Positions 7,864 through 57,988 of a stretch of DNA of 64,000 bases are shown here, in pieces. The notes under the pieces were generated by a model, which worked only from the letters and a program-made list of their open reading frames with translations, made no database searches and was not told the DNA's origin. Location of the stretch: NCBI RefSeq assembly GCF_963675165.1, contig NC_087389.1:1584001-1648000 (forward strand), in the 5' to 3' direction. The position numbers were made by a program, and so were the translations under genes. Every line of letters begins with the position of its first letter. Position 1 is the stretch's first letter. Source of the DNA: Halichondria panicea (taxonomy: Eukaryota; Porifera; Demospongiae; Suberitida; Halichondriidae).

Positions 7864-8195
7864 CTATTGGAGCTCCTCTGAGTAGAGAGCTTTCATATCT
7901 TCGAATGCTTTTAGGAGAGCATCTCCAAACTTCCTCGAGTCTGTTTCAGGACAATTCCTCTTGGTGTGTATACTGAAGTTGACTGTAGAAAAACACCAAG
8001 ATATGATAGCATGTACAAAATGGAGTAAAAATTAATTCTTACTGTCATCTTCGCCGACAATGATGTACGAGATTCCATACCCGTCCTCAGTCACGGTACC
8101 AAACCCACCCATGCACGAGGAGACATTTATGTCCCACAGAGGAGTGGACTTGACTGGCGTTTGGGAGGTGGAGAGGGTGAAGGAGAGATTGAAGG

Positions 8196-8234
<39 letters not shown>

Positions 8235-24000: not shown

Positions 24001-27000
24001 CAGCAGCTGCAGGCAGGGGAAGGGAGGGACTAAGCAATGGGAACGTACTCTAGCTAGTAGCACATGTGGAGAAGCAGGTGCCACTCATTATCTGTGTGCT
24101 ATTATTATAATAGATGCACACCTGTCCATTAGAGCTAATTATAGATCTATATACCATCTATGGTAAATGTTGCTACCACATGACATGCCAATTGCTGGAT
24201 ATTGCAGCTCAGGCTTTGACACACTAGTAGCTAAGCAAGTGTTGCTCTACCAGGGCTGCTTACAGAGGACTGGTACAATTACCCCAGCCTCCTACTGTTG
24301 CCCTGGAAGTGTGTACACACTGCATACAGAATATTGATCCATTTAATGAACAAATATACTTGCTTACACGTACAAGTACATGTACATGTATGTGTATTTG
24401 TGTACCTACATCTAAGCAACCAAGAGGTGTAAGCAGCATTGGCTCTCTAAGCATAGATAGTAGCTCTCACCTGCTCTGACAGCTGGTGTCTCGAGGAGGA
24501 CTCTGTTGTAGATGAAACGTATGAACTTGGACGGGGCCTTGCACTTTGGACCCTCTCTGCCGAGCAGGTGCAGCACTCGAGTGGCCAAGTCCACGTGCTC
24601 ACAGTCCTCAATAAACTCACACAAGTGGGACAGCCCTGGGAGGGGGGGGGGGAAGAGGGATAATGTACAAATGAGCAAGAGTACAGAGCTAGCTCTGTGC
24701 ATAATAAATACCAAATTTGCTGCATTTTTTTAATACTGAAAAACAAAACCACTGACTAACTCTCTAAACTGATGGACGTATGACCACTACAATCGCCACA
24801 CACACACACATCACCTGACCAACGCATACATGCACATCAATACAAACAGCATTTACATCACTTAGTACTAACTATAAACGGTAAAGACAGACACATACAG
24901 CTGCACTGATTAACGAACCAGCCTCCTTGACCTCCTGGTTCTCCTCTATGATGGTGATAATGGTATTCACGATAGCCCTCTTGTAGTCGACTCCGCCCTC
25001 TTCACGTAGCATGGACGACAGGAAGGTCATCAAGATGTGGTGCTTGCGGGGGAACTTGATACACACAGATTGAATGGCCTCCACTACAATCGTCTTGAAC
25101 TCATCAGATATCTCAGACATGAAGCTCGTGATCTGTTTCATGAGTCTATCCACGCTTGTCTCACTGCCAGTCTGTGGGTGTGGTTAGAGTCATAGCAAGT
25201 CCATTACATAATGCGCAATACAAGGTATAGGGACTCTTAGTAAACACAGCCAGTTTTGTGCTACAATGTACAGTGTACATGTAGGTACGTGTAACCGCGC
25301 ATACAACGTACTACATGTACACGTTTGTTTCCCCCTGAATACAATAACACGTCACATTTCTTCCATATTGATAGCTAGTCCCACCTTGAGCAGAGTCGTG
25401 ATGGCCAGAGTGGCAATGCTCCTGTTAGTGTCTGAGATGAGGTTCTCCAGGTCCACATTACACGAGGTGACTGCGTCAGGGTGGAACATGGCGATACGGT
25501 TGAGAGTCTTCACCGCAGAGAAACGAATAGTAGGCTTCGAGGAGGTCAAAAACATCTGCAATACTGGAGGGAGGGGTTAAGGAGCTAATTAATATGTACA
25601 AGTAGGAACATATAAGAAGCACAGCAAATTGAAAAGGTACATGTAAGCACATATCTATACTATACATACAGATAGCAACAAAGGCACTGGGTACTCTGTT
25701 ACAGTCAACATGCTGACACACACAGGGAAGAAGCAAATGAGCAGCAAAGAGACTGGGGGCAAATACTGCCTATACTGACTCAGAGACGGTTGGTTGTCTC
25801 ATTACCTGACACAGCAGGCTGCACTTCTCTGGCAGTGACATTCTTGAGGTTGACCATCGAGCGAGCAGCCTCGTACACAACCATCTGTCACACACAACAC
25901 ACACATGACACTGAACACTTCGGCCAAGCAAGCTATCATTCAATATACATACAACCTCACATACATTTAAAAATACATAAAACCACTGACAGCAAACTTC
26001 CAGTTCATGCAATGGTTTACATGTACATCCTGTGATAGCCCCCCCCCCCCCACCCACACACACACACACACGTACACACACGTACACACACACACACACA
26101 CACACGCACCATGTACCCACCTCACTCTTGTGCCTGAGGCAAGTCTCGAGGAAGTCGTACAGCACACTATTGGAGGACCTCTCCTCATCCTCGAGCACGG
26201 TACAGGCTATCCTGATGAGGAGGCAATAACCGTGGGGAGAGCGGAGGGGGGAGCGTATCTGCTTGGACACCATCTTGGAGACAGCGTGGCGATCCTTCTT
26301 CCTGATGTGGTAGAGCAGACCCATGGCGTGGTATTGCACCATCATGTTGTCAGAGGAGAGAGCCTCGGTCGTTTCATTGATCCAACGTTTGACGATCTCA
26401 CTGCTACCCTTGAAACAGAGATGCTGCATGGACAGGTGGAAGACAGTACAGTACAGTTGGTGGAAATCATTCCTGAGATAACATTATTCAGGAAAGAGGC
26501 AAAAATTTATTCAGGTGATACAAAGCCTAACAATGACCAGCAGTACTAACCAAGAACTAAGTGTACTTACAAAAGACGAGACTAGAGCGGCACTGGCCAC
26601 GGCTGAGTTCCTGTCCACAATTGCCTGCTTCATGTAACGCTCTATAGCTTGTATCATGGTGGACTGCAGTGGGTACAAACACACACTCAGATAAACACAC
26701 ACAACCATTCACAGTCTGCATACACGTACTTAGAGAGAAAGGAAAGGATTTCAGACTGGTTAAATTTGGCCCAGATCTTTGAACTAAACACGCAACTTAG
26801 TTATTGTATGTATGTACATGTAGCTACAGAATACAAAGCTGCTCCAATAAAATGGGATTTAGCAAGAGTCCATGAAGGTACTTGGCATGCGTGGTATCTA
26901 GGGGCAATGATAAGGATCTGCTCTTGGGACTTCAAGCCCCCTCAAAACACACACAAGGCTAACCCAGATCTGCTTACATCAGTGATGGTACAGAGAGCCT

Positions 27001-28055
27001 TGATAGCACTGGCTCTGAACTGGTCCTCCTTGCCCGTCATGTCCTTGGTGAGACTGCTCGTGACAATAATGACATCACTCGACATCTTGGACATCTCTTT
27101 GATGGCCAGATACACGAGGCGACGGAGCGTATAGTCCTTGGACTGGAAGAGCTTTGTAATGGCAAAGAAGGTCTCGGTAGCCTCAGTGGAGGAGAGGGGA
27201 ATTCCCTACACGCAGATATTACAGAATATAATAGAGTAACTATTAAACACATACAGTACAAAATTGCTCGTTCACATAAATTTTCTGCTAAATCGTGAGT
27301 GTCAAAATTGGATGTTGTATTTGGCATGATTATACAAGGGGGCTACATTATTAGAATAATGCCCTTGTCAAACTAATGCCCCACCTCCCCCCCCCCCCCC
27401 CCCCCTACCAGGGATAGGGGTGGGGCATTAGTTTTACAAGTGCATAACAAAGAAACAGCAATAGCTTACGTACATGATGTGCGTATGCACATGTAGAACT
27501 CTACAATACAAGTGGGTGTGGTGGATGTACGTACATGTAGAACTCTACAATACAAGTGGGTGTGGTAGATGTACGTACATGTAGAAACAAGTGGGTGTGG
27601 TGGAGGTACGCACATGTAGAGCTATACAATACAAGTGGGTGTGGTGGAGGTACGTACATGTAGAGCTATACAATACAAGTGGGTGTGGTGGGGGTACGTA
27701 CATGTAGAGCTATACAATACAAGTGGGTGTGGTGGAGGTACGCACATGTAGAGCTATACAATACTAGTGGGTGTGGTGGAGGTACGCACATGTAAAGACA
27801 AGTGGGTGTGGTGGAGGTACGTACATGATTGATGAGGTAGAGGATCTTGGTAAGGATGACAGCACAACGTCGCGGGTGCAGATTGTTATCATTGAACACT
27901 CGGGCCTCTTGTAGAACAGTCGTCTTTTCAAGATTTACAAATGGATTCGCATCAGCTGTGTAAAGTTATTTAAATGATTGAACTTTATATTGAACTTTGT
28001 ATTTCCCCCACTTACAATCTTCATCATCCTTCTTGTACGCTCTAAGCACGTTCAT
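21090..28055 (-). CDS. COPG1: Coatomer subunit gamma
   Basis: Seventeen minus-strand exons join in phase to about 876 residues (human COPG1 874): 28055-28016, 27955-27825, 27205-26978, 26663-26571, 26423-26121, 25884-25806, 25563-25385, 25171-24919, 24635-24471, 24006-23827, 23518-23393, 23167-23093, 22893-22751, 22601-22436, 22145-22045, 21732-21594 and 21319-21090. Gamma-COP is a core subunit of the COPI coat in Golgi-to-ER and intra-Golgi transport. Conserved blocks: [40 protein letters not shown]-type adaptin repeats such as [55 protein letters not shown], then the appendage [15 protein letters not shown] and the end PCERSDK...[18 protein letters not shown]. The start [13 protein letters not shown] matches the family N-terminus in position. 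Intron 2 carries a minisatellite that repeats its own 5' splice site. Confidence 0.96.
26041..26108. repeat. Poly-C plus CA microsatellite, COPG intron 5
   Basis: Run of C followed by CA/CGTA repeats directly downstream (on the coding strand) of the exon 5 donor. An open frame reads through it but is spurious. Confidence 0.85.
27478..27828. repeat. Minisatellite at the 5' end of COPG intron 2
   Basis: About eight tandem units of two lengths (roughly 44 bp and 33 bp), each with the core AAGTGGGTGTGGTGGAGGTAC. On the coding strand each unit begins with ACATGTACGTACC or ACATGTGCGTACC. The authentic donor of exon 2 is CAT|GTACGTACC at 27825/27824, so the repeat unit includes a copy of the real splice donor and its context. 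Confidence 0.9.
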
Positions 28056-28800
28056 CTTGAGCTGCAGGACAACAGAGATCTCTTTGTCACTATTGACACG
28101 TGGCAGTTTCTGTAAAACACCGTAGACTATGTCGTATGATCACATGCACTCCTAGATCCTAGCCTCGTTCCCTGGCCGATCCGTCTCCTAGCCTCGTTCC
28201 CAGGCCGCCGATCCGTCTCGGGCCTGGGAACAATGCTAATGCACTCCCAGAAAAGAGAACATTTGATGATCTTTACCCTCTGATCTTTGATTTTAAGCCA
28301 GCCGCCCACGCTTTTACACTCTGAATGATCTCACTGTACTGTCTGGTGCAGCTAGCTAGACTAGTCTAGCTAGCACAGATGCAGCCAGCTAGCCTGTCTT
28401 AGTTTGTACACAGTAATTACAGCTAGTTTTGGGGAGCTTAGAAAGGTCAAGTGTTTCCCGGGGTTTCTACGGTTCAAGAGAACTTGGTACATGGTATGGC
28501 CTTGTCAGGTTTGTTGACCCCAAGGTATTTCCCGGATCCCATGAGTGAAATGAGTGGGATGTGGTGAAGTAGAGAGACTTTTTGTGGTTGGGTTAGCCCA
28601 TGATGATGAGATAAGCTAGTGTAAACTACAATCAAAGGAGTTTCTATCAAGCCAAGTACACTGACCCTCTGACTATTAGAAGAAGGTCTCTACTTCTCTG
28701 AGTGGCAGTTCGAGTAAATCAGTAATCACACCAGTTCTATGTGAAGAATTGATTGATTGATTCTCATACCGGTAACAAAGCTATGCAGTGCTACCCTACA
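28056..28800. promoter_or_regulatory. Divergent promoter region, COPG / tailless LRP5/6 paralogue
   Basis: 745 bp between two divergently oriented start codons. The part nearest the LRP gene (about 28620-28790) is recognisably homologous to 48995-49187 upstream of the full LRP5/6 gene (shared strings TATCAAGCCAAGTACACTGA and AGGTCTCTACTTCTCT), so the promoter was included in the duplication. A degenerate inverted-repeat element with TAGCCTCGTTCCCAGGCCG ends lies at about 28158-28236. Confidence 0.55.
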
Positions 28801-31800
28801 ATGATCAGAGGGGCCCTCTGTGTCTGCCTACTGACCCTATGGACACCCCTTCAAGGTACACCATTATAAGACTATAGGCTGCACAAACACAGCACACACT
28901 TTAATACCAAGCCCCGATTTTTTTCTGTTTAAAGGTCGAAAAAAGGGTCTGGAGAATTTCCTATCAACGAGTGTGTTACCGCTGCGCATGCGCATGTTAT
29001 GCAACTTGTCAGCTAGATGCAATGCAATGCAACTGCATCGGTAACAACGAGCTGTAGATATCTAGCTAGCTTCAAGGATGTCTCCTGTCATGTCCCTCTG
29101 TATACTTGAAACCAGCAATCTAAATGCAAGTGCATGGTACTGCAAATAAATTGATTGACGTAGACAAACTATGAACAAACAATTAGTCAGACTATATTTT
29201 TGGGTCAAAACCTCCTTCCTATATTAACACCCCTTATTCATCCTGTTACATCAAGGGAAGGACTTCCTGCCACCTCTTCTTCACCCACTCTCACGATCAG
29301 CTCGCTGGCCATTCAAACCTTGGAATAACAGATCTCTCATTTGTCATAATTATAAATAAAACTACAAAAGCTTGTAAGAGACAACTAGAAAATAGAAAAT
29401 TCTACCTGGCACCCGATACACAACTTGAATATTGCTCAGTTGCCTGCATGGTACCCCCATCAATAGTAAAAAGTTCAATCATTTGCGGGAAGAATAATCG
29501 CGTAAAATCAATTATCACCCACCCCTTTTACCTTTAAGCCCACATCTGTGTCAAAAGTAAATGTCTTATTTGGAGAAGCACTAACCATCTGAACTATCCA
29601 TGTGCATTAGCTCATTAGACTACCGGTAGTTGCAATGGCTTTTTTCACTATAAATTAATCACTCCTTATTATAATTCCTGCATCCTTATTTGATCACTGG
29701 CTATGGAGGACTCGAGAGCTTTTCAACTACACCCAGTTGTAAATACATTGCATATAACCGTGGTTTTACATTTATATTATGAACTACACTGTGCACGGTC
29801 ATCAACTATAAAAAAATTTGTGACCATGCACTGTTTACTATTAGCCACTTACGGTGGTGCACAACTTTGATATAGAAATTTCTCCAGATCAAATTTTTAT
29901 CGGGGCTGGTGCGAAACTAAACACTGCACTGTAGTTGTAGGCTACCCCATAAGGAGAGTGTAAATGTGTAGTAGGTGTGATAATAATTAGCACAAAAAAG
30001 CGTAGAAACAAGCAATCCAGCGAGAGCATAAACTCGCTTGACATATCATTTTTCTTCAATTTTATCACCCCCTCATGGCCAGCTTAATTTCTAATGATTT
30101 ATGGCTCGAGGTGTAGCCGCACGAGGGATATGGTAAAGCTGACTGTGTGTGTGTGTGTGCGTGTGTGTGTCTAGCTGTAACTGCTCAAACGGTTGCAATG
30201 TGACGAAAACTAACAGTTTCTATAGGCTTTTTAATTTAGCTACGTTCTTTTGGATTTTGACTCGTGGATTTGTAAACTAAAGTTTATTTCGTGAGTTATG
30301 GCTAATTTTTTACTTAAAGTTATGGCTGTTGCATTCTCTTCAGAATCTTTCATAGCATCGTCTGTTCGCACAAACTTTCTCTTCAACTTATAAGTTAGTC
30401 TTGCACTGTGCTAATGCCGAGAGGAATTAGCACAGCGCAGCTTGCTACTCCATCAAGTTGTGCCTTCACATACCGTACAGTGGGAAATGTTCGTGGGATG
30501 CAAAATTTCGCGTTTTTCGAGGGCAGAGTATAGTTAACGCGAAAATTAAAACTGGGATAAACTCCCATGCACCGGTATTTCACGTGCAAAGCTATTGGTG
30601 GGGTGGGTGTGGTTTTCTGGCATTGAAACGTGAATAGAACCCACGAAAATGTCTGCAGGGCTCTGGAGCCAAATAACGAAAATTTGCACCCATAAACATT
30701 TCTTGCTATACAGTACTCATTTTAGTCATTCTGGTGTTCTGTAATAGCCCCGAGTATATCACCTAGCTATTTAACAAATCTACTTCTACTGGCTGTTTCC
30801 CTTACTTAATGGCATGGAAGTTTGTATAGAAGTTTGCAAGGAAGTTTGCAAGAATCGTTTACGTCCCGAAAGGTGGTGACAAGAAGAATCCGTTGAACTA
30901 TAGGCCTGTTTCAATACTACCAATTCTTAGTCAAGCTGTTTAGCTTGAAAACTGCTTGAAAATAAGTTGCAGACTTGATGCTAGAGCATTACGAGCAAGT
31001 GAACCACTCGGTAAATCAACTTATACCGCTGTCCTCATTTCCTTCACCCATGATAATTATTGTGAATGCTAGCTGTAGACGTCGGTTATAAGTATGCTGT
31101 GTGTTCTTTGACCTTAGTAAGGCTCGCCCCACTCAATGCATGCTTGTTTGGAAGTTATTAGACCTGCACATGCACCAACTCGGTACTTGTAAAATGGATT
31201 TTACAACTGTCTAACTGTTATCAAACTGTCGTTCTTGATGGTGCTCAATCATGCACTCTACAGGGTGTCATACAGGGGGAAAGGGGGGATATCCCCCCCC
31301 TAGCTCCAATTTCCCCCCCCTTTCAATTATGACTGAGTGTCCATAGCTGGGTATTGAAATAACGGTTGACCTTTTTTTAGCAACATTTTCTGGTTACTTT
31401 TCTCATTTCCCCCCTCTACTTCAAAATCCTGTATGACACCCTGCTCTACCTGTAATTTATAGTGTCCCTCAAGACTCGGTACTGATCGAGCCCTTTACTT
31501 CTTCTATTTATATTGACAAAGTATCGAGTTCAGTAACAAACGGCAGTAGATTTGCCATGTTACTGTATGCTGCCGGTTATCTCATGCATGCACGAGGGAT
31601 GCACCCTCGTGCACAGTTAATACAACTGGAGCCCGAGGGAAAGCGTTGTATTAGCATCCCTCTTGCATGAGTAATAACCTATACATAAAACTGTTAACTC
31701 CAGCATCAATGTCTGCATGATCGTGAATCTAGAAAGCAATTAGATCGATTAGAAAACAGTGCCTTCAAAGATCGCCTACAAGATTCAACTATAACTTAAC

Positions 31801-34800
31801 TAGCCTATTATTTTTCAACTACTGTTTCATTAGCAGTTAAAGGATCTGTACTTGTATATGGCCTGAAATAATGTGAATATACCATCATCAATGGCTCATG
31901 TTACAGCTGCCTCTCCTCTGGTAAATTTCAAGCGTTGACTGATTGATTTGTTACTAGTAGTTGATTGCCTTCATGGTCAGTTAATCTTAGTCATTATAAA
32001 CATTGTCCTGAGCGAGTGTTGTTTCAGTTCCACCTAGATATGTTGTATATAAGTCATGAATTCGATCCTTGCGAGCATATATACACCTGTTTGTCCTCCT
32101 CTCCCACAGGTACATCTGGTGTCTTGTCAGAGCTCTACTTCTCCAACAACAATGACATCATGCGACTGACGAATGGCTCCTCCACTGTGGTTATCCCTGG
32201 CTTGAAACTAGTAGACACTATTGAATGCAATATCTGTGACCGTATGATCTACTGGGTGGACCAGAACCCACCTGTTGCCATCCGTCGAGCCCTCCCCGGC
32301 AACGCCTCCTTTGTGGAGACGGTGAGTCCCTATGTGTTTGGGGGAGGGGTCTACCAATGTGGGGGTGTCACTGTGGTTTCTTCAATTGACATTATACTGG
32401 CTTTGCACATCATTATGTCAGCACATACATGTACTCTTACAGATACTGGATAGGGACCTGGACCATCCCAAGGGGCTGGCCATTGACTGGGTCGGGAACA
32501 ATATCTATTTCTCTCACGGCAACCGTATTGAGGTAGCCACCTGTGACGGTCAACATCGCAGGGTTCTCAAAGTGATAGAAAATGTAGAAGTTGGCCCAAT
32601 TGCCATTGACCTCACTACCGGGTAAGTCATGTGATGATAGGCCTAGTAGCAACATTAAGATCCTGCCTCCTCCTCACACACACACAGGTACCTCTACTAT
32701 GTGGCTGACATGTTCTTTGTTCATCGTATGATGTTGAATGGCAGCTCTGACGACGGGTTTATGCAAGTAGTAGATTCACCAGAGATTATTTGCATGGAGA
32801 TAGATGTTGTTAATCAGGTCCTCTACTGGACCAACAAGGGCGACAGCACACCCTCCTACGCTATCAAGAAACTTGACCTCACTACAGCTGTGGTAAGTGG
32901 TAGTTGACTGTGCATTAGACCATTTACTATGCCCTCCTCTCCCATTGCAGCGACAGGTGGAGGCGATAGTCACTCAAAGCATTGCTTACAAGCTGGTTCA
33001 CCATGGCAACACTCTGTACTGGACTGAGATGAACCGCACCACCTCAGAGATTGACCGACCAGGGGCCCTCTATTCTATGGTACTCGGGTCAGGTGATATG
33101 GAGGAGGAGGTGCTCCTACGCAACTACACACTGAACCCTCAGGATCTCTGCTACTTCTTTGAAATGAATGGTATCCTATGTACTCACAAGTATTTTGTAC
33201 CGTATTAACTACGAACATCAAACATAAGTGAATTTTGTGTTGATCACTTGCAAAAATAAAATCCCAAAAACCTCAGCTATTATACTGGTATACTGGTATA
33301 CTGGAATGACATGTGATCCTTCAGAACACAATACCGTATAGCGGGTATATTTCGAGGGTATAAACTTTCACGGAATAGCAGCCTTTTTGCACCCATGCAT
33401 GCATGCGATTCGTGGGTATAAATGTTCATGGTAGGTGCCTGATCAGCGAACCACGAAAGTTTATAACCTCTAAGTATAATACAGGGCCGTAGATAGCTTA
33501 GGTTTGCAGGGGTAGCAAAATAACAGCTGAACATTTTTATTAGGTCAACTGTTTTTCATATCCTCTGAGTATGGAACTTGTAACTTGCTGTGACACCAAC
33601 TTAGCTATTCATGGAGCAACTAAAACAAGGTAGATTGTACTAAGAAGATGCTCCTGCTTCCCAGAGGCATAGTAGAACTCTGAATTTTACCTAAAAAAAG
33701 GTCACCACTTTTTCTCTGCAGTAAGCATGCGCATCAGATAGCCCTGCCCACATTTGCATTGGGCATCTGCACATCAATGTTTCACAGTAAATCTTGCAGA
33801 TCTAGAATGCTAGGGGGGCAACTGCCCCCCCTGCCCCCCCCGCTGTCTACGGCCCTGTAATACCCGCTATATGGTAGTTAAATCGCAAGAAGTTAACTTT
33901 TTTGTTGATTTGGCTTATTTGCAAAGGTTTTTTACGTGCATGTTGTCGCACTAAAACGAATTGCCATTATTCGTTTCCGGTTGTTTCGTTAGTAGCTTTT
34001 CGTTTTGTACTACATGCGCAAATGATTCTACGGTATGCCAATAAACTGTTCATGTTGCAATTGTGGATCGCACATGTAATCACATCCTGCCCCCCTCATA
34101 CACATAGTGTCCGAGAATAGCTGTGCTATTAACAATGGTGGCTGTGACGTGCTCTGTCTGACGGTGCCCTCCCTCAGGGGTGGGACTGAGCCGCAGTGTG
34201 CCTGTCCTACTGGCATCCTGTTCTCTCCCGATGGCGATACTTGCCTCCCCTGTAAGCTAAGCTAGCTGTCAGCTTAACTACTGCATTTAATTGTATATTA
34301 CTTCAATACCCATGTTTGGACCTAATAAGTCACTCCCCACCACCTACAGACCCAAACAAGTTCCTGCTGTTCACTCAACGCCATGATTCCGATACTAGTA
34401 GCACTGTCAGCCATACTGATGTGAGACTCATCTCTCTGGATGCTCCGCCATTCTTTGTGGACACACCCACCTCTGTGACAGTGCCCAATGCATCAGCACG
34501 GTTCATTGCCTATGATGTCATAACATTATTTGTGAGTGGTGTGTGTGTTTAGTGTGTGTATACTGACCCCCCATATAATGGTGGTGGGGTGCAGATACAG
34601 TTTGTGTTGTGTGTGCATGCATGGTGTACTGTGTATACTAGATGTAGCTAATCTCATGAGAATAGTTCCAGCTAGTGGGTCATTAGTCATATGACAACTC
34701 TGTAAGTATGTGTTGTGTGCCTTGTTCAATACTTGCAGCTGTTGAAACATGATCATGACCATGTATACATTATACTGATGTGTGTGTCCCTGCGTAGGTG

Positions 34801-37800
34801 TACTGGAGCCAGGTGGACCCCCCACAGATTCGTCGAGCCCCGGTGCATGGTACGGAGGGGGAGGAAGAGGTGGTGATCCAGACAAGCATCTCCCTCCCAG
34901 AGTCCCTTGCCATTGACGCCTACGCCATGAACCTCTATTGGGTCGACTCCGCCCTCAATAAGATTGAGGTGGTGGGAATTGGTGAAACCAACAGGTATCG
35001 AAAGGTGCTCGTGCAAACAGGGAGGAAGCCTCTAGGGCTGGCACTCGACCTACTCAACAGGTCTGTCTGGCTTATTAATGTTTGGCATTTGTTGGGGGAG
35101 TTTTTGTAAAGAGAAAGGGTTGTTCTGTTTGGATCAGTGTATTATTATGGTTGCAGGTTTTCATACAGGATTTTTAGCTGAGGGGGGGGGGGAATTATTT
35201 GGGGACCCCCAGAAAAGATTTGGTGATTAAGGAGCAGATTAAATGATGACAATTTAGCTAGGCTAATGCAAATAGGACCTGACTTGAGGTTGTAGACATT
35301 TTTTATACCACACTTACGTCACAACTAATTGATCTCATTGGTCAACAGCTGTAGGATCATACAGCCCCAGGCGTGCACAGTTTTTCAAGTTGTTTTTTAG
35401 TTTTTTCATTTATTCAAAAAAGCTGATTAGCAAAAAGAAAAGAGCCATGCTTAACGGTACTAAGACTCAAAGCGATGGCAGAAACATGGAAGTGTAGTTA
35501 TAAAAAGAGCTTGCAACTCCAGTAAGGGACATCGAAGAGTCAACGCTTGGACCAAGGAACGTCTTGAGCATCTGTAGGAGTTGACGTGTTGCTTAACTAG
35601 CTCTTTGACGGCTGCAAAATCCTTGTTTTTTTTGCAGTCTGCATCGTGGATTGAATTGTTGCTAGGGGGAGGTCCTTTTATAGTACTGCAGTCACGCGGT
35701 ATAAGTCAGATATGCCACACCTACTCGGAAGATATACACCCCACATATATCCTCTGCTACCATGGTTATATATCTCTCGGCTACGCCTCGGAGTAATCAC
35801 GGTAGCAGAGGATATATGGGTACATATCCTCCTCTTAGGTGTGGTATATCCTATACAGAGATAAACCACAGAATTAAATTATTATAATAGCTACATGTAG
35901 ATCTTCATTGTAAAACACCACAGTTTGATATGACATCAAGTTTTGGAAATCCCATGGCGCCCCCCTCCCCGTTCTATATGAAACCCTGGGTCAAGAGTGC
36001 AATATGGGATTAATAGTGCGAGACAAGCAATGGCACGAAGCGTAACCGAGTGCTATTAACCTGCCAGTCAGTGGCGGATCTAGGATTCTTGAAAGGGGGG
36101 TTCCAGGGCTCTGAGCAGGTCGAGGACTGTTATTTTACCTAAAAAAAGGTAGTCACTTCTTCGAAACAGTGAGCATACGCATTAACACACTGAAAACACA
36201 CATAAAGGGAGAGTATCGATTTCTCATAGGAACACTGTAAGGAAAGGGTTGCTCTGTTTGGATCAGTGTATTAGTTGATTAACTGCACACCCGACCGTTC
36301 TTTAGGTTCATGTACTGGACTGACCTTGACAAGAGTGCTCCGAGGGTGGAGCGTTGCCATATGGACGGCACAAATTGCACTCAAATACTCACTCACCTTC
36401 CCCCCAACACTATCCGTGAGCCTGCCACCATCACAGTGGACCCTCTCTCCAGCTGGGTGTACTTTGCTGAGACACAGAGTGACAGAGTGTTCCGCTACAA
36501 CGGTCTCACAGGAGAGCACACAGACGAACAACTGCGTGGTATGTTCTTGTAATTATCATTTACCCCACGTGCAATGAGTGTTGTTACAAACGGTTCACTA
36601 TAGTGTCTCTTTATAGACCCAAAATCTGGAACCGCACCCAATGATGTGGCAGGACTGGCGGTACATGGTAACTACCTCTATTGGACAGATCGTAGTGGCA
36701 CTGGGGCATCTATGGCGAGGATTGACAAGGTCGAATTTACTGCCCCCGAGACTGTACACAACTCAGGGGGTCTCCACGGTCTGCTGGCTGTCGATCACAG
36801 TGCAAGTGCACGTATGTGCAATCCGTGTGCTTGATAACTCTAAATGTTATGATGTTTCCCCCCACTCATAGTTTCCCCTATGTGCTCGCTGTGTGAGCAG
36901 CTGTGTCTGTCCCCCTCATGTGCATGTGCAGACCACTTCATATTGGACACCTCCACTCAAGGAAGTTGTTGGGGTGAGCCACAAACCACGCTTGCCCACA
37001 TACATGTACTGTTAGCGTACTAGCGTATGTACATGCAAGTATAAACTCCTTGAGACTACTGACCTACCCCACATAGAGCCACCAGCCACTCTGTTGATGG
37101 GTAGCACCCTCCGGGGGGTCTTCCAGTTTACAGAGAACAGTGCTAGCGTCAACTGGAATGGGAACAATGAACCAATTCTTAATATTAATGTGGACCATAT
37201 GGATGTTGACTTCAGTACTGACACTCTCTTCTGGGTCAGCAAGGACGACAAGGTACGTCCCTCTGGGTCACATGACTGGCACATGATCCTCACATGACCT
37301 CCCTGCATGCAGCTGGTGTATCGTAACTCACTGAAAAACACCTCCCTCCCGGCTGAGCGTGTAGTGCACTGCTGTGTGGGGGAGATTAGCGATCTGGCTG
37401 TTGACTGGTTTGGCCGCAACCTCTACTGGGTGGACTCTGCTCGTCACGTGATTGAGGTAGCCCAACTTGATGGTCGTCACAGGATTGTGCTGTACAATGT
37501 CCCCCCTCGCCTGGGGACACTCAACATCATCACACTGGATCCCCTCAGGGGGTAAGCAAATGTTACTGTACATGTACAAGCAAAATTATTATGTGTGCTA
37601 TGCATAATATATATATTATGTGTATGACCCCCCCCTCCACACACATACACAGCTATCTATATTGGTCTCCAGATTCTGGAGCAAAAATCTATCGCTGGAG
37701 GATGGACGGGAGCAGCACAATGTCACCCGATGCGTTCTGGGAGTCACCTGACTATACTGAGGTGTTCGGATTGGCTCTCAACTACACAGCTAATGCAGGA

Positions 37801-40800
37801 ATCAGCGACCAGCTTTACTTCGGAGTGTACAGCAATGACCCGTGAGTATATAGTCACATGACTAACCTCATGACTGACCGTGATATTTCATGACATGCAG
37901 ACCGGGGTGGCTGGTGCACAGTCAGGAAATGGATGATGAGGACAACCTATCGCTACTGGGGCAATTTAACTCAGCTGTCAAGGACCTCAGCACTTACAAA
38001 GGGGACTCGTACATCATACAAGGAGACATGTACGTGTTGGTGCTACATAAGTGTTGCTAGCACTATTATTGTAACGGTTATGAGATCGGCTTTACCAGCT
38101 GTTGTATGTTTGTATCTACAGTAGTCTACCCACTGTGGTGAAGGTGCAGCACGATGACTTAACTAACAGCCACAGCGAAGTTGCCATACCAATTGCCCTG
38201 TTTAACCAGCCACTCTCCACTCTCTCATTGGCAATCAGCCATCACTCACTGCAACCAGGTGACTAAGTACACAACTAGGATCAAGTAGGGAGAGAGGGAC
38301 TGGGTTAGATGGTTCAAGTGTATCATAGCTAACTTACGACATGTAATGCTTGTGTTACTGATTCGGTGTATTGTACATGTATATGTACTACAAATATAAT
38401 TAGTAGTGTTATTCCCTCAGGTCTCCACGAGTGCAGTGTGGACAACAGGGGCTGTGGTGGGGGAGCAGTGTGTCTGGTGGAGACAGGGGTGAGGGGGGCC
38501 TGTGTCTGCCCACCTCTAGAGGCCAGTGTAATTGAAACAGACAGCAATGGCATCGACCATATCGCCTGTGTTGGTGAGAGATACATGTAGTTGTCTATTA
38601 ACAAGTCTTCTCTTTATAAGCTTAGCCCTTGATATTAACTAGTGCTATGCAGTAGTTGTACATGTAGTGTAGTATATAGCAGCTGTTGATGATGTACAAT
38701 CGCCAACCCCAGCTGAGGACACTTTTGTGTTGCTGGCCACTGAGGATGGTGTGTACGTCCTACCATACGTGTCGCCTTCCATTGAGAAGAGCTCCAGTAA
38801 GGTACAGCCCTTCCCCCTTCCTCCGGTGGGGTCTATTCAGAGTCTGACCTATGACCCCATCAACAAAAGTGTCCTGTTTACTGACGACACCTCACAGCTG
38901 CACAGGTGAGTATGTTAGAATATTTTTCCTTTCAAAGGTCCATTTTAGATTAGCGTTCAGATTCATTTTCGAAGAAAAAGCATGGGTAGATTAGTATAGT
39001 ATAATTTATACTCGCACAATCATTTGTTTTATACAATGTCATAATTAAAAGTGTGTCTCTCTCCTTGTGCAGTGTGTCACTGGACAGTTCTTCTGACTAC
39101 TCGTACCCGTTGGTCAATGACTCCGCCCCCTATTCCCTGGCGTACGACTGGAGAGGTGGCCACGTCTTCACTACAACAAGCCCTGGTTTCCAAATAGAGC
39201 TCACCACCATCAACGGGGAAGGGGTGGGCTCAGTACTGGACTTCCAGAGGACGGACAAACGCTATGTCCTTAACATACTGGGAGAGCTACTCTTTGACAC
39301 TGACAGACAGTGAGTTACAATCTGTGCATATATTACCAGGAGGACATGAGATGGAGCTGGAGCGTCTTACTACGCGGATTTAATATCGTCCTGCTGTGTA
39401 CAAACATTGCCAAATATATGTCAAACTGCTAAGTGCTGCTAACATTAATCATTGGTACTTAATGAACAAACGCGGTCAGCCATACACGTATACAGAGGAT
39501 TTAGCACATATTCAGTACAAACAAGGAAATGTGGTTAGATGATATTGAGTCCGCAATACTAAGATGGCTCCATCTCCTCATGTGCTCCTGATATTACCAA
39601 GAGTACTCCATACATAGTACATTTTTTCTTACTATTTATGGGCTCCTGATATTTCTGAATGTCACTGACATCACTTCCCCTCAGGCGATTGTATTGGACG
39701 TATGTGGCTCACGACGGTGAACTGGGTGTAGATGTGGGGGTGGAGCTTCGTTACATGGACCTGTCTGACAACACCAGGACTGAGCGCTCTGTTGACCTCG
39801 GAGGACGAAGGATCAGGAACATCACTCTCGAGCCAGAGAGTGGCTCCATCTATTGGGTCAGCATTGTCAACACTGACTATGTCATCATTGAGAGATTTTT
39901 CCCTAATAATGGGACTGTCGTATCCATCCAATCGGCGACAGCTAGTGTGATGGGATTAGCTGTTACCATGGTGAACAGTCAGCCGCTCCTATTCTGGTAC
40001 GACAGTGCAGAGGAAGTCATCTTCCTGCACGATGGTAGGCAAGAGGTATCCTATAGAGGGTGGAGTTCTGGGGGTGCCAGGATAGTGGGCATGCTTGCAC
40101 ATACAACTATGCCGGGTGAGTGGAGTTACTGAGTGACTAATCGCAATAATTATGTACATACATGTAAAGTTATGTATGTCATGTTTCAAGCAATCCCCAC
40201 CTCTCCCCCAGTTCCGGTTAATCTTCCCTGCTTGGCTGCAGAGAGGCCGTGCAGTCACTACTGTTTGTCTAACTCCCACAGCTCAGCTCTTCAGTGTTCC
40301 TGTCCCTCCAATACCCAGCTGGAGAACGGCGTCACATGCTCTGGTAGGCCACCCCCTCACTTTCATTGTGTGTGTGTGTATGTGTACGGGATAGCTATCA
40401 TTAATTGTATACTCCCCCTCCTAGATGTCTCATGTGGTAATTCGCTGTGGTCGTGTGGAGGGGACTCCCCAGAATGCTACCCACGGACCTACTTGTGTGA
40501 TTACATTCCTCACTGTCGGAACAGGGCCGATGAAACATGTAAGCCATGACAACTTCTGTGTCTCTGATTGACTTGGTATATTTTGTATATGTGTACGTAT
40601 ACAATCAAGACCCAGTTTCTTTGTAATTATGACTTTTTATAATGTACATAGAGTTACTGTAATTATTGCCTGCATGTGTGCAGTGTATGATGTATTTTAG
40701 CCATAATATTATTTACTGCCCTTTGCCTTGCAGGTAACTGTAATCGGAGTGACTTTGGTTGCTATCTCTCTGACACTGGTGACGAGTGTGTGGCCATGGA

Positions 40801-41312
40801 GTTCAAATGTGATGGTATCAGCCACTGTTCCCATGGCGAGGACGAGATGGATTGCTGTGAAACCAATCAGTTTGGCTGCTACGTAGAGGACGACACCTAC
40901 AAACCTCTGGGGGGTGGGTCGGTGATCCGCTACCACTGTCTCCATAACTCCTCTCGTTGTGATGGCATGGTGGACTGTCTGAACCAAACCATCAATGAAC
41001 CTCTAGATTGTGAGTGGCGCTCTGCACAGAATGTGTACCCCTGACCTGCTACATGCATGTATTTAAATAGAATGCATGCTCTGGCCAATATAGGATTTAT
41101 AGAACAATGTAGTTCGTATTAATTGACGTTCTACAATGTGTCTTGTGTACCTATACCATATCCCCCCTCCAGGTCCTACCACTATGACCCCTGAACCTAT
41201 GACCACGCCTCCTTCAATTACCACCTTTCTGATCATCATCACCGGTGTTGTTGTTTCGTTCTTTATAGCTGTTCTTCTTCTGTTGCTACTTGTTTACAAG
41301 AAAAGGTTATGA
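28801..41312 (+). CDS. LRP5/6-type receptor paralogue lacking the cytoplasmic signalling tail
   Basis: Twenty-four exons: 28801-28855, 32110-32321, 32443-32621, 32688-32892, 32951-33170, 34108-34251, 34350-34531, 34798-35060, 36306-36538, 36617-36811, 36872-36973, 37077-37252, 37313-37551, 37653-37841, 37901-38029, 38125-38258, 38421-38573, 38713-38905, 39073-39309, 39685-40115, 40212-40343, 40425-40538, 40734-41009 and 41173-41312, about 1510 residues. After a signal peptide come four YWTD propeller plus EGF pairs (~20-338, 339-663, 664-1003, 1004-1334), three LDLa modules (~1335-1464) and one TM (~1483-1505). This is exactly the LRP5/6 ectodomain order. It then ends YKKRL and TGA: five cytoplasmic residues and no PPPSP motifs. 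All exons are open and match 49188-59818 exon for exon. A decoy or modulatory Wnt co-receptor role is inferred. The start follows the paralogue; an in-frame ATG also exists at 28783. The exon 5 donor (G|GTATCC) is weak. Confidence 0.87.
30478..30715. mobile_element. Probable MITE with CCGTACAGTG termini
   Basis: Starts TACCGTACAGTGGGAAATGT and ends with a similar inverted end (ACATTTCTTGCTATACAGTA). The interior has CGTGGG- and CGAAAATTTGCACCC-type strings also found in the CCGTATAGCG family. No coding capacity. Confidence 0.55.
30840..31580 (+). pseudogene. Decayed non-LTR retrotransposon reverse transcriptase fragment
   Basis: With frame shifts and stops, the plus strand encodes remnants of LINE-type reverse transcriptase: [20 protein letters not shown] near 30850, FDLSKA near 31110, VPQDSVL near 31460 (from the usual GVPQGSVLGP), and LLYAAGYL near 31560 where an active enzyme has YADD. 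The order is that of RT motifs. The copy is non-functional and interrupted by the element at 31261-31443. Confidence 0.75.
31261..31443. mobile_element. Inverted-repeat element inserted in the LINE relic
   Basis: 183 bp with termini CAGGGTGTCATACAGG and complement, flanked by a 5-bp direct repeat CTCTA (31256-31260 and 31444-31448). G- and C-rich blocks lie just inside the ends. It is a non-autonomous DNA transposon by structure. Confidence 0.85.
33332..33876. mobile_element. CCGTATAGCG-family MITE, intron 5 of the tailless LRP5/6 paralogue
   Basis: Ends ACCGTATAGCGGGTAT and ATACCCGCTATATGGT with flanking TA. The outer element is split by the nested element at 33482-33857. The corresponding intron of the full paralogue is only 101 bp and has no such insertion. 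Confidence 0.8.
33482..33857. mobile_element. Nested element with CAGGGCCGTAGATAG termini
   Basis: About 376 bp, with ends CAGGGCCGTAGATAG and CTGTCTACGGCCCTG, flanked by TAATA on both sides (5-bp target duplication). It is inserted in the MITE at 33332-33876, so it is the younger of the two. Confidence 0.85.
35154..35988. mobile_element. Probable inverted-repeat element, intron 8 of the tailless LRP5/6 paralogue
   Basis: Left end CAGGTTTTCATACAGGATT and right end TTCTATATGAAACCCTG are imperfect inverted repeats, each followed inward by a G/C-rich block, as in the element at 31261. No clean target duplication was seen. It encloses the palindromic repeat at 35706-35853. The paralogue's intron lacks this segment. 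Confidence 0.5.
35706..35853. repeat. Palindromic repeat (hairpin)
   Basis: Inverted arms: CATATATCCTCTGCTACC on the left pairs with GGTAGCAGAGGATATATG on the right, extending outward to GATATGCCACACCTA and TAGGTGTGGTATATC. The short spacer contains CTCGGCTACGCCTCGGAG. It is probably a foldback MITE. Confidence 0.75.
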
Positions 41313-44300
41313 TAATTATGTGTCGTATTACCTTATTAACCCGAGGCCAGGCCGGTTATAGTAGTCCATTGGTTTGTCTGTCTGTCTGTCTGTCAGTTTG
41401 TCTATCTGTTTGTGTATTCTGAGTCTGCTCACCTGGATGCTATAATGGATAGCCTCAACACAGTTATGCCTTGGTGTGCATGTGCACGTGTCTGTCTGTT
41501 TAGACTGCTATGCAGCTGCTCAAGGATCAATGAAGTGCAAGTAAGAGTTTCTATAGACTTCTACTTGGGTTTTAATTCGTGGATTTGCAACTTCGTTCGA
41601 GATATGCCTAGTATTGCTTACTTGAAATGCCATTGCAGCCTCTTTTCAGAAAAGTGCGTAGCAAAACTTGTCCATGGAGTGTTGCTATACTTAGTAGTTA
41701 GCTCTGCACTTGGACGTTAGCTGCAAGAAAGCTGTAAGGTTCTACTGATGCAGCAGCCATTATTTATATGCCTCGGTGCGCATGTGCAAACGAGGTATAC
41801 TGTACATTTAACTAGTTTCACAGATATACTTTCTAAGACACACAAAACCATGTGGATACAGCACGTATAGAGCTATAATATAGCTTCACGTGCTGTAAAA
41901 CATGACCAACACTACAGCACAACCATGAGTTGGTTACGATGCAGGCTCTCTTTCTCCCTACTACGTTCCTCAATTATGTGCATTAGGTGTGCAAGTAGGT
42001 GTGCAAGATTGTCTCAAGGCTACCCCAATAAATTGGACATGGTGCCAATGGACTCTAAGAATCGAACCTGCTCATTATCACCTAACAATCAAAACTCTGA
42101 ACTATAAATTCTGAATTTTTGCTTACAATAACATGTTCACACTTCTACCTTTGCTCATAAAGAGACTGTACATGGAATAAATAAAATTGTGGGTGGCACG
42201 GTAGGCATAAATCATCTACAGATCTTGCGGCAGTTGCCACATAAATCCTGCTGTCATAGCATCACTAAGGAAACCCTCTGAACTGAGAAGCAGGATATGG
42301 TCCCATGAGTGAGGTAAGTAGTATACCCCTATTCATGGGACCAAAAAAGGGGGCTGGGTGTGTGGGATTTTCAAGAACTGAGAGGCCACTTTACAATTTT
42401 GTTAACAGCTTGATAATGGGGCCTGGCAACCTCTAGTTCCCTTAGATACCTACTCTCCCTGACCGTTACCAGGACCCTTAGGTCCCCGTTTCTTAGCTAT
42501 ACCCTGTCGTTGATAACAACTTTACAATATATGATACTATAGAGCTACTGCATTCGAGCAACACCTCCCTTTTTATCTTTTCCGGACCATGCCCCCCCCC
42601 CCGAAGCCATTCCTCAGTTATAATAAAACTGTGTGGTTTGTAGGGTTTTCAGGAAGTTTGAACGACTTTGTGGTGGGGCATAATTTTGAAGTTATGGGAG
42701 ACGGTTGTAAATCCTTCTGTATAATGTTTTAATTCTGGCTGGCCTAGGTGGATTCCCACTTGATCTAATTGCTTTTCTCTACTTTTAGCCTTGTTTTTGT
42801 CTGTAAATACATATTTCAGGGGTCAAATTCATTTCGCTCGGAAGCAGAGATGTAAGTCTCTAAGAGAAGTTTGGAGAACTCCAATTAGTGACCTTAAGTA
42901 GCTAAGGTCAAGTGGTTCCAACCTCCTGGATTCTGCCTGCAACAAACAAAAAATGTTCAATCATGAATTTTATGTGCAGTGTAGCAATATAGCTAGTAGC
43001 TGGGCCAGCAGCGTAGAGAGTAAACACACTAGTGGTGTGTAGTTAGTGAAAACACTTTTATATATGTTGTGGAAGGCTATAGCGTTACTTTCCCTATCTA
43101 CTGTGTGTGTGGACTGACCATCTTAGAGAGAGTGCATGATGTTTCACTGACGTCTGAGAATTTGGGTGCTTTTTGGCCAGGAAATTCATAGATTGCAAGC
43201 GTGTAAAACATCATTACTAGGCTAAGCATGGTTTGTCTTAGCTTCGTTGTCTCTAAAATAATGCTATAGGTCACCTACTAAGGCGACCTAGAGTTAATAC
43301 CTACCACAACTCAGTGAAACGTCACTCAACGAGGCTAGGTTTGTATTTGACACCACAAAAACAAAGCACTCATGATCTAGTAAGCTGTCCATCTCGGGGC
43401 AAAAAATTAATGTCTAACAACATTAACAGGTAACATTACAAGGAAACTGTTCTGATACTGCAGCTTTGATTTCTCCGCTGTTATATAGGGAGCTTTTGTT
43501 AATTTGATGGGGCATGGGGATAGAATTCTGTCTCACACTCCATTGGCAGAGTGTCAAGTGGAGCTCCATCTAGTGTTGGCTGTATTATAGTACGAGAATG
43601 TTTCTTCGCAGGTCAGGTTTTATGCGAACATCATTACACACTTCCGTGAGCAGGGTGGAAGTAAAATCTCTTATCTCGTACTTATCTCGTTGTGTATAAG
43701 CTTTGCCACAGACATTTTTGTTGGAGATTCCATCCATATAGCGCAGTGCTAGGACATCTTGGAAGGCTCACAGCTAGCATATAATTAATTATACTGTTGA
43801 CTTGTCTATTTTGTACGTAATAATATATGTTATTTATTACTCATGCACGAGGACTATACATCTAATACAGCTCGAGCTCTCGAGAGAAAAATCTCGGTCC
43901 CAGGTCGATTTTCTGCATTTATTTAGGTTGTATTTTTCCCCTTGCGGTTGGTTTATTAGAAACAAATCGCCTGCATGGGAACAAACCATTAGCAAAAGGA
44001 GGTACGACAGGCGCAATGCAGCACTCTGATATAACGTTGTAGGTGGGCAGACAATTAGTTTTCAATCAGATACTATTTGCTAGAGTTGCACCCGCTGTCG
44101 TACCTCACCTCTGATATTTAGCTATACAGTACGTGGGCATAATAATGGCGTACTAATCGACTTATAGCGGTTACATGCATAAAGAGATTTCGTTCTTTCA
44201 TTTAATGCTAATTATGCTTTCTTGTACAGTGTTAAAAAGAATTCAAGTCCATGGGTGGGGTGCATGGTGCTTAGGTGAAAATCGCCTTTTTAAGACACGG

Positions 44301-44787
44301 TGGGTGCATGTGCTTCAGGTAAAATTGCCTACACATCCTGGTATGATATCGATATCAGCTGCATGTTCTGGTATATAATTATAAACAAACATTGTGCATA
44401 AACGATATCAAGCCTTTGATGTGGTCTGCCAGTACGCTATAAAATCTAGTGTTTTCTTGCAGAGTTGATTTCCTAGTCTTCAGGTTATCTCCCAACCCCC
44501 ACAACTCTGTATACAGCACTCATATAATCCCCTCACTACTCCCAACCTCCCCTGACCCCCAGAGGCCACGTGATGCTCATGGACTTTGAACTGTACCTAT
44601 AGAGACTCGTCTAGTACATGATTGATGGCTGTTGGTTTTGTTAATTTATTATTGTGTTTAATCATAATCTTATCTTGATTGGTTGTGTGCAACAACATAT
44701 TATTGATGGGTTACAAACTCGTAATTAAAAGTGTGCATCAAAAATTGAAAACCTATATACGTATTGAACTCTGAGGAGGCTCTATCA
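41313..44787. other. 3.5 kb gene-free intergenic region
   Basis: Between the stop of the tailless LRP5/6 paralogue and the stop of RIC8 (tail-to-tail). No spliced gene model or RNA gene could be supported. The segment 41430-41830 is a dispersed repeat also found near 60820. No remnant of the missing LRP5/6 cytoplasmic tail was recognised here, but a degraded piece could escape reading by eye. Confidence 0.55.
41430..41830. repeat. Dispersed repeat family, copy 1
   Basis: Shares long strings with 60820-61230, including GCTCAAGGATCAATGAAGTG (41518-41537) followed by CAAGTAAGAGTTTCTATA, and the short end GCCTCGGTGCGCATG (41771) followed by a CGAGGTATAC string. A more diverged relative lies at about 30100-30420. 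It looks like a mobile repeat of unknown class. Confidence 0.65.
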
Positions 44788-47700
44788 TCAATCTTCTTCT
44801 GACTTATCCTGGTCTAAAACTGGCTTCCCATCTTTACCCACTGGCATCACCTTGATCACACCGTGTCTGCACGAGTACACAACACGTCGTACACATAATA
44901 AACATAAAATTATGGCCATTAGTCAGTTGTGTGTGTAGTGCCTACTAAAACGTTTTAGTAACCGTAGTGTTGTACAGTAGACTCTCGTTAATCCGGTCAC
45001 CCTTGGGACAGTGCAGCTTGGCCGGAATAGCGAGCTGGCTGTATTCCAGGAAATATAGCCGTGGCTTAAAACGACCTTATCTCGAATCTAATGACTAATT
45101 TTGCAGTTCTTGTCTCGAGGATAATGAATCATTCTGCTCTTATCTGCCAAACCACACCTACGTCATATCCGGCCGTAATAAACGTATAAAATTACCTTGA
45201 CAACCTAGTTTGGGGCAGCCAGCACTGGCCAGTATACGGAATAGCGAGTGGCCGTACTTTAGGGTGAGTTTTGTGCAGTAATTATTTAGCTAGCAATCCG
45301 TGCCAAACCAAAATAATGGCCGGTATATCGAGGTGGCCGTACTTCAGAGAACCGGAATAGCGAGAGTCTACTGTATTGGAGTAACAGTACCTGTTCAGTT
45401 TGTCGAACAGCTCTGCCAGTTTCTCTGCCTCAATCTCCTTCTCCTCTTCAGTCATGTGATCCAAGGGGGAGGGGCTATCCTCAATGTCACCTGGCCCCGC
45501 AGTTACTGGGTCCAGTCTACACACCAATGTCAGGCAACATGAAGACATGCACCAAAAGCAGCCACTCACTTGTCACGTGATCTCTGATACTCCTCTGTGT
45601 CAGAGCTTTCACTGTCTGACGAGTACTGCTCCTCCCCTTCACAACGCCCTCCCCCTAACAATCCACGAGACATGAGTAGACCAGCAGCATTCCCGAAACC
45701 AGTGTGTTTCACCAGACGAGATACTGTGTGTGTGCATATGTGTGTGTGTGTGCGTGTGACAAGCCGCACACATTTGAATTTCTGTGACGTATATATGTGT
45801 TATCAATAATGGCGGCCATGAAATAGCATACTCACCGTTCTCTTTACACAGCACAAAGAGCAGGTCAGCTGTTACTTCCTCTGCGCCCATTGACCCCGCC
45901 GTCATCAGACATACTATCCTGCAGGCAGGGATAAAATACCACTAGCATTACAGGGACTACACGACTAACATGCTCTTGAGGGAGTTCCCCTCATCTGGTC
46001 GCTGTGTGATCTCCTTCAATGTGGGCAGAATCTGCACAGAGGACAAGAGCAGCTAACACCAACCCACACACAGTCACACACACATCACTCACAATGGACC
46101 TGAGGTAGCGTCGTATGCTGCGGTGACCCTTAGCCAACACCCTGAGGGCAGTCAGTGCTGGGGAGAGACGGGAACGCTCTGAGTCACAACCCTGCAAGAG
46201 AGTGGTACAAATGTCTGTGATTTTAAGACTTGGCTCACCAGTTGCCAGTGAAGGTAGTTGATGAGTGACAACACTGCACACATGTTCCAGTCATCACACA
46301 CACAGTCAAGGTTGCTAGCGTACAGGCCATCACAGTCGTAAAGGTCAGGGTACAGAGGTCGTAATGTGGGCATCACTTGAACATCCCCGGGGAACAAGAA
46401 CGACACAGCACACTGCTCTGGAGTGTTGACCAGAAGCTCAGCACAGTGACTGTGGGACAACAAAGATAATTGTATAGAAACATTGCTATTGATCAAAGTG
46501 TATAGGAGATTATTTACTTAATTACATGGCATGAAACTAGGAGAATTCCAGTCATGGCTCAAACAAAACACACACACACACGAAGTATACCTGATGGTGT
46601 CTGTGGTAGTCTTGTCTCTGTGTGGGGGGAGAGAGATAAGGAGGATCCGTACCAACTGAGAGAGGCGTCGCCACAGGCACAGCTCATCCTGCACACACAC
46701 ACACCCTCACAACTCACACACACACTTGCACCATCCCCTTACCTCATCATACTCGTCCTTCCAGTTGAGAGTTTGGTTGAACAGGATCTTGAGGGCCTCA
46801 CACAACACACTGCACTGACGCACTGAGATGGGCGTGGTCAAACAAGCAACACCCTCTCTTGTTAGGTTACATGGTGACACCTTCGGTTTCGGCTCATCCT
46901 CACAGATGGGTGTGGCTTGAACAGAAACCATACCCTCTTTCGGTGACGGTCCGAACAAAGTAGCATCAACAAGATTGACTAGAATAGGAATTCCATTACA
47001 GCAGTCTCTGAACGCTACCCTGCAATTAAGATGTAGAGTAAGTAACCGATCTTCGCAAGATACCTATAATCGGCGGCTATTGCACGAAGCACAAGATGAT
47101 TTTGCACAAAACTAACTACATGGACCTACAGATTGGTAAGAAAGTAACAGCTCCCAAAAATTTGGAAAGAATAACTTGCTTGCGGACGGAGTGGTGGTCA
47201 TGAGAAGTGAGCTGCCGAATTGTTCAATTGTCGTCAGTGAGACATTTATCTCCGTCTTTGCACGCTTACTAAGCACTGAAACTACCAGCACTAAACAATA
47301 CTTCTTGGCACAATTCTAACTAGTGAGCACTACTTGCAGGCAGTGTTAGCTGCAGATCGAGCCCCACCCAGTAGAGCTGACAAAAATTTTGCAAAAAAAA
47401 TAATGCTGATTCAGCAATAATTGTGCACATAATCTTCAGTGCGGCCTGTAATCGAGGCTAATCCCAGTTTAATTATTGCTGACTGTGCACAATTGTTGCT
47501 GAATCAGCATTATTTTTTTGCAAAATGTTCGTCAGCTCACTGGGTGGGGCTCGATCTGCAGCTTTGCCAGCAAGTAGTGCTTACTAGTTAGAGTTGTGTC
47601 AAGAAGTATTGTTTAGTGCTGGTAGTTTCAGTGCTTAGTAAGCGTGCAAAGACGGAGATAGATGTCTCACTGACGACAATTTGGCAGCTCACTTCTCATG

Positions 47701-48129
47701 ACTACCACTCTGTCCGCAAGCGAGTTATTCTTTCCAAATTTTTGGGAGCTGTTACTTTCTTACCCATATGTAGGTCCATGTAGTTAGTTTGTGTAAAATC
47801 GTCTTGTGCTTCGAGCAATAGCCGCCGATTATAGGTATCTGGCGAAGATCGGTTACTTACTCTACATGTAGGAATATTATTGAACTACACGAGTTGTACA
47901 TACCTCTCAGCTGGCCCACAAGCCGTGATGAGGAACAAGAGTCTGAGGTCAAAGAAGAGGAGGTCATGTGGTGGCTGCAAGGTGGCTGCCAGGGAGAGTC
48001 TGGATGAGAGGCCAGTCAGACAGCCAATGTCCGCCGTGAGGGGGGCCAGGTAGCGATGATTGAGTACAATGTTACACAGTACTTTGGTCGCCTCAACTAT
48101 CACTACAGGGGGGGGGGGGGACAGAGCTA

Positions 48130-48168
<39 letters not shown>

Positions 48169-57954: not shown

Positions 57955-57988
<34 letters not shown>

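Follow-up and report, generated by a model that had tools for sequence, protein, structure and literature searches.

A tail-less paralogue of the Wnt co-receptor LRP5/6 in the sponge Halichondria panicea, a candidate for a natural decoy receptor

Results

A Pair of LRP5/6 Genes

A stretch of 64,000 nt from the genome of the demosponge Halichondria panicea (contig NC_087389.1, positions 1,584,001 to 1,648,000; hereafter the window, to which all coordinates refer) contains two closely related genes of the type of the Wnt co-receptor LRP5/6, called copy A and copy B. Genome-wide searches covered the assembly of 131,455,214 bases in 39 contigs. Copy A (28801-41312, plus strand; 1510 amino acids) leads from the ATG at 28801 through 24 exons and 1510 codons to the TGA at 41310-41312 and does not contain an in-frame stop. 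Copy B (49188-59818, plus strand; 1805 amino acids) also has 24 exons, and its 1805 codons extend from the ATG at 49188 to a stop codon that ends at 59818. All introns, 23 in each copy, are of the GT-AG type. The exons pair one to one, with unequal lengths in exons 5, 14, 20, and 24, and the gene models thus bear out an earlier note on this DNA, which had described an exon-for-exon match with all 24 exons of copy A open. The proteins are 91.7% identical across 1509 aligned residues, the ectodomains 92.3% (1352/1464). A layout with one transmembrane segment is common to both, as the peak hydropathy over 19 residues, 3.12 in copy A and 2.83 in copy B, is located at the membrane segment in each case. 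As judged from its sequence, copy A arose by duplication of an LRP5/6 gene, has since diverged, and ends directly after the membrane segment.

A query of 723 bases from exons 19-20 of copy B matched only two sites in the assembly, namely, copy A and copy B. The two genes had been described as a tandem; they do share the window and the strand, but the arrangement is loose, because about 7.9 kb and open stretches on the minus strand intervene. In these stretches (44790-48870), which we take to resemble Ric-8, the one piece compared with Pfam (48202-48525) had no match. The intervening DNA also harbors a large inverted repeat (47031-47867), which is built from three serial arm pairs of 117, 115, and 80 nt that are 95-96% complementary.

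The first half of the ectodomain matches LRP6 chains, and the LRP6 chain 21ks_B matches propeller 3, the following EGF domain, three LDLa modules, and the stalk, in this order. Sequence matches indicate that copy B has four YWTD propeller-EGF pairs beginning near the N-terminus, and by the alignment with 21ks_B the last EGF domain is followed by three LDLa modules before the membrane is reached. In summed scores the LRP4 and LRP2 chains are ahead of the LRP6 chains because they have more propellers. The Pfam model Ldl_recept_b was above its cut-off, and the whole-genome Pfam scan had one match of it (34) in the window; the EGF and LDLa models stayed below threshold in both copies, with 33.0 bits for FXa_inhibition (cut-off 33.4) and 19.6 bits for Ldl_recept_a (cut-off 24.1). 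The tail of copy B contains three PPPSP-like motifs, two of them imperfect, and the tail motifs listed in the earlier note, including PPMSPDS, are present. A PPPSP-like motif was found in none of 11 stretches fetched from other YWTD-rich places and read in six frames, stretches that may miss the gene ends. Propellers first, LDLa modules beside the membrane, and the tail motifs of copy B correspond to the LRP5/6 type, of which both copies are, by their modest Pfam scores, diverged members. Copy A has the ectodomain and the single transmembrane segment of the family, and it does not have the PPPSP tail of a signaling co-receptor. From other sponges, a single LRP5/6 with a conserved tail, said to contain five PPPSP motifs, has been described for Halisarca (PMC8235796), and an LRP with regular domain composition is mentioned for glass sponges (PMC5684314).

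The Missing Tail

The cytoplasmic tail of copy B (58949-59815), which carries the PPPSP-like motifs, is missing from copy A. Its length is 289 residues when counted from FYKKK; the long tail noted earlier was thus confirmed, but its 291 residues had been counted from a different start point. Searches for remnants of this tail downstream of copy A (41313-44800) were negative. The best tblastn match had an E-value of 9.2 (matches accepted up to 10), and blastn with 7-base words retrieved a single 22-base piece with an E-value of 0.89. A second copy of the tail was not found anywhere in the 131 Mb assembly, the sole other match having an E-value of 0.74, and the viral contigs did not contain any relatives of it.

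It had also been proposed that the transcript might be spliced from an AAAAG/GTTATG donor at 41305 to a downstream tail exon. With a scoring matrix built from the 46 donors of copies A and B themselves, this site reached -7.1 bits, below all of the 46 real donors (3.7 to 12.3 bits). A tail exon 3' of copy A was rejected on three grounds: no significant similarity in 41313-44800, no second tail in the assembly, and no good donor. The lack of a tail match and the poor donor therefore make it most likely, from the genomic sequence, that copy A ends at the TGA at 41310-41312.

The Rebuilt Membrane End

Exon 24 of copy A (41173-41312) encodes the stalk, a membrane segment of 24 residues (41226-41297), and the C-terminal KKRL with the stop codon (41298-41312). 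As noted before, the protein ends in YKKRL (here read as VYKKRL), followed by TGA, directly after a hydrophobic segment. The counterpart in copy B is a membrane and juxtamembrane segment with a CCYCC cluster (58871-58948). Three deletions set copy A apart from copy B: 9 nt (codons for S, T, and P) are missing ahead of the membrane segment, and the shared run tcttcttctgttgctact is flanked by gaps of 8 nt and 10 nt. The two unequal deletions shift the reading frame between them, and therefore FFCCYCC of copy B reads LLLLLLV in copy A. This leaves copy A with a hydrophobic stretch that is longer and without breaks, and from which all four juxtamembrane cysteines are gone. The loss of bases with retention of hydrophobicity had been recognized earlier, but the accompanying statement that copy A stays in frame holds true for the net result only. 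The membrane and stalk part (45 codons) has a dN of 0.18 and a dS of 0.41 and is thus more diverged than the ectodomain.

The C-terminus of copy A has lysines at positions -3 and -4 and thereby the form of a KKXX motif. Neither the cysteine-to-leucine change nor the KKXX-form end was part of the first reading of this locus. The lysines are derived from the juxtamembrane KKK of copy B itself and are located in just four residues after the membrane segment, and therefore the motif is possibly accidental or ineffective.

Selection on Copy A

The earlier note had asked for the dN/dS ratio (omega) between the ectodomains, with a value near 1 as the mark of a pseudogene. The ratio is 0.31 (dN 0.037, dS 0.120, bootstrap interval 0.24-0.41), and it reached 0.5 in 0 of 2000 resamples; with one copy unconstrained throughout, 0.5 would be the smallest ratio to expect. 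Two segments of the ectodomain gave values of 0.25 (487 codons, 0.16-0.40) and 0.33 (512 codons, 0.22-0.49). In simulations with copy B as start sequence and an assumed transition bias of 2.5, neutrality during the whole time led to a mean of 7.5 stops and to no stop-free sequence in 1000 runs, and neutrality during half of copy A's time led to 3.8 stops and to 2% stop-free sequences, compared to zero stops observed in copy A. In exons 1-23 (4393 bases) all three indels are multiples of three, compared to 21 of 66 in introns 2-23. All 52 ectodomain cysteines of copy B have been kept in copy A. This pattern demonstrates purifying selection on copy A as an average over the time since the duplication, and selection has, by the same measure, kept copy A open. 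A full pseudogene since the duplication was ruled out by the intact splice sites, the frame, the absence of stops, and the omega of 0.31; copy A does not have the features of a pseudogene, and the pair of 8-nt and 10-nt deletions in exon 24 restores the frame.

The similarity of the two copies is not uniform. A tract of copy A (36202-38296) is 95.5% identical to 53945-56047 of copy B over 2115 columns, introns included. Introns 9-15 are 95-100% identical, while the other aligned introns, which do not include intron 1, are 63-97% identical. The tract of about 2.1 kb points to gene conversion between the two genes at some time after they had been duplicated, and therefore no single age can be assigned to the duplication.

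Borders of the Duplicate

Upstream, the similarity begins at 28622 in copy A and at 49002 in copy B, about 180 bases before the ATG (73.9% in a blastn alignment of 28622-28899 with 49002-49284). The stretch 28622-28800, which is homologous to 49002-49187, probably represents the promoter and the 5' UTR of copy A. Downstream, the local similarity ends at 41290 and 58937, and a finer alignment extends to about 41303, a few bases past the membrane segment. The roughly 30 bases between the end of the similarity and the first downstream repeat are without significant likeness to the tail of copy B. A first local alignment of the 3' flank with copy B returned nothing but a tgtctg run, and a local alignment of 41299-41480 with the tail was no better than alignments of shuffled sequences (P = 0.6). 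At a dS near 0.12, neutrally evolving tail DNA should still be recognizable, and therefore the tail has been deleted or was never copied. Both histories fit the sequence: copy A may have been born truncated, or the tail may have been lost by deletion. Provided that the duplicated segment ended where the homology now ends on either side, copy A was born without a tail.

Two dispersed repeats follow the gene. The first (41333-41462) starts at about a TTAA at 41336, 21-24 bases past the stop codon. All 13 fetched copies match copy A only from 41333-41354 onward, and 11 of the 13 have a TTAA at the edge, which suggests a TTAA-targeting element; at least 42 matches, copy A itself included, were obtained with 40 of 279 candidates scored. 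The second repeat (41463-41815, approximate limits set by eye) is more abundant, with 2606 candidate places, of which 40 were scored. A model in which the first repeat inserted itself into the tail, at a TTAA such as that at 59007 in copy B, was considered but is not put forward, as the 37-base alignment in question did not exceed the controls, with a P of 0.07 by shuffling and of 0.13 by comparison with 52 window segments.

Genomic Context

A minus-strand gene upstream of copy A (23759-28100) has an Adaptin_N match at 24875-25183 and presumably resembles coatomer gamma. The window contains a second duplicated stretch, 7870-11292 versus 12335-16550, pieces of which are 74-96% identical. A minus-strand Carn_acyltransf match (13092-13373) lies in the latter half, and the two halves possibly represent two genes of the carnitine acyltransferase type.

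The assembly contains 10 Wnt-domain matches, by position about four genes, which fits an animal genome, as well as two Mesd matches and seven DIX matches. Five of the DIX matches have nearly equal scores and are spread over about 280 kb (G000:C3:7793044-8072323), and every one of these five contains a single TGA and a single TAA; this region is an array of DIX-bearing copies.

Discussion

The earlier note had proposed that copy A is a naturally fixed, membrane-bound decoy or Wnt buffer. We would give about even chances to the view that copy A encodes a membrane-anchored LRP5/6 without the signaling tail, which acts as a brake or buffer on canonical Wnt signaling. The binding part has been kept and the signaling part is absent, which is the hallmark of a decoy at the level of sequence. 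The gene would make, or would recently have made, an anchored receptor with the whole ligand-binding ectodomain. The tail of LRP5/6 contains phosphorylated sites and binds the Axin complex (PMC8235796); these sites are missing, and without them copy A would not be expected to signal by the known route. If expressed and transported to the surface, the protein might bind Wnt and compete with copy B for Wnt and Frizzled, as does tail-deleted LRP6, and such competition would dampen or buffer canonical Wnt signaling. The model invoked by the earlier note has support in the literature, where C-terminally truncated LRP6 is described as a dominant negative (PMC6797755). The LRP5/6-type ectodomain, the absence of a tail and of any other tail homolog, the purifying selection, and the presence of Wnt, Mesd, and DIX matches in the assembly are all in agreement with a brake or buffer, while the location at the surface has become the weaker part of the proposal.

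Several observations weigh against this interpretation. Selection was measured as a mean over all the time since the duplication, and in the segment with the conversion tract (465 codons) omega is 0.36 with an interval of 0.20-0.60, which includes 0.5. When neutrality was simulated for the last fifth of the time, 1.6 stops were obtained and 20% of the simulations were stop-free. Copy A has gained an extra cysteine, Cys184. Of the differences that could be polarized with LRP2, LRP4, and LRP6, nine of 12 are changes in copy A and three in copy B (p = 0.15; 12 informative among 39 covered sites, from parts of the alignment only), and therefore copy A may be less constrained than copy B. In addition, the absence of the juxtamembrane cysteine cluster and the KKXX-form C-terminus both argue for poor exit from the endoplasmic reticulum (ER).

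A recent relaxation or loss of function in copy A is thus possible. The corresponding explanation is that copy A was constrained earlier, or was partly upheld by conversion from copy B, and now lacks a selected function. The polarized differences, the additional cysteine, and the share of stop-free sequences after a short neutral period (and, to a much smaller extent, after a long one) speak for a dying duplicate, and the putative conversion tract indicates that the copies have exchanged sequence. However, the conversion spans a minority of the gene, the bootstrap of the ectodomain omega stays below 0.5, and the gene is free of stops, with all splice sites, all 52 ectodomain cysteines of copy B, and the frame at all three indels of exons 1-23 retained. 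Taken together, this renders the explanation unlikely, albeit one to be reckoned with.

Another explanation, which we also regard as unlikely, keeps the inhibitory role and moves it into the cell. Copy A would be kept in, or returned to, the early secretory pathway, where its binding to full LRP5/6 or to the chaperone Mesd would leave less co-receptor at the surface. Exit of LRP6 from the ER is favored when Cys1394 and Cys1399 are palmitoylated, and the mutant is retained there (PMC5102578); the replacement of FFCCYCC by LLLLLLV removes the juxtamembrane cluster of copy B. The KKXX form is that of a COPI retrieval signal (PMC12331695), and Mesd matches are present in the genome. On the other hand, retention is not all-or-none, as some LRP6 leaves the ER unpalmitoylated (PMC5102578), and the cysteine rule has been carried over from a mammalian protein. 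The lysines were inherited and lie within four residues of the membrane, and open-access titles contained nothing on the function of KKXX so near to it. Nevertheless, the loss of the cysteines and the KKXX form together make a decoy at the surface less certain than the first reading held. A more specific variant, which we consider improbable, is a dedicated tail-less LRP5/6 brake that lost its tail at once, when a duplication breakpoint fell shortly past the membrane segment, and that is routed by the cysteine loss and the KKRL end to the early secretory pathway, trapping the co-receptor or its chaperone and not Wnt at the surface.

It is very improbable that the transcript of copy A gains a tail from some other exon, be it unrelated or far away. 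Exon 24 of copy B would be one conceivable partner, since it has the same orientation and follows its counterpart in copy A at a distance of about 17.5 kb. However, ten GT sites in exon 24 of copy A up to 41305 all score below zero, compared to at least 3.7 for real donors, and no tail homolog besides that of copy B was found in the assembly. To reach exon 24 of copy B, the transcript would also have to skip exon 24 of copy A and to cross the open stretches on the minus strand.

In the literature consulted here, a tail-less Wnt co-receptor is an engineered dominant negative (PMC6797755). If copy A is indeed a natural brake or buffer, it would be a test case for the buffering of Wnt levels in an animal and for a receptor becoming its own inhibitor via truncation. 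The pair also offers a test, set up by nature, of what the juxtamembrane cysteines do in LRP5/6, since the same ectodomain is anchored with them in copy B and without them in copy A. In titles and abstract openings of the open-access literature, a natural tail-less LRP5/6 gene was not evident. Decoy receptors without a tail have precedents in other pathways, to which copy A would add a natural LRP5/6 gene.

Comparison with Known Systems

The two copies share the LRP6-like propellers, the EGF domains, and the three LDLa modules in order with the LRP5/6 (Arrow) co-receptors, and copy B also shares the tail motifs; in contrast, copy A lacks the tail and the juxtamembrane cysteines. A C-terminally truncated LRP6 made for experiments (Tamai 2000, as cited in PMC6797755) is said to be a dominant negative. 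It resembles copy A in having kept the ectodomain and the transmembrane segment and in having lost the tail, but copy A is a separate gene of the genome with a rebuilt membrane end and a KKRL terminus, and its effect is a prediction. The Wnt antagonists SFRP, Dkk, and Kremen likewise act at the level of ligand or receptor, but they are not derived from the co-receptor itself. Natural tail-less decoy receptors exist in other pathways, for example, BAMBI, IL1R2, and the TRAIL decoys. As in copy A, the binding part has been kept, the signaling part is absent, and the decoy is encoded by a paralogue; however, these decoys belong to other receptor families, whereas copy A would act on Wnt.

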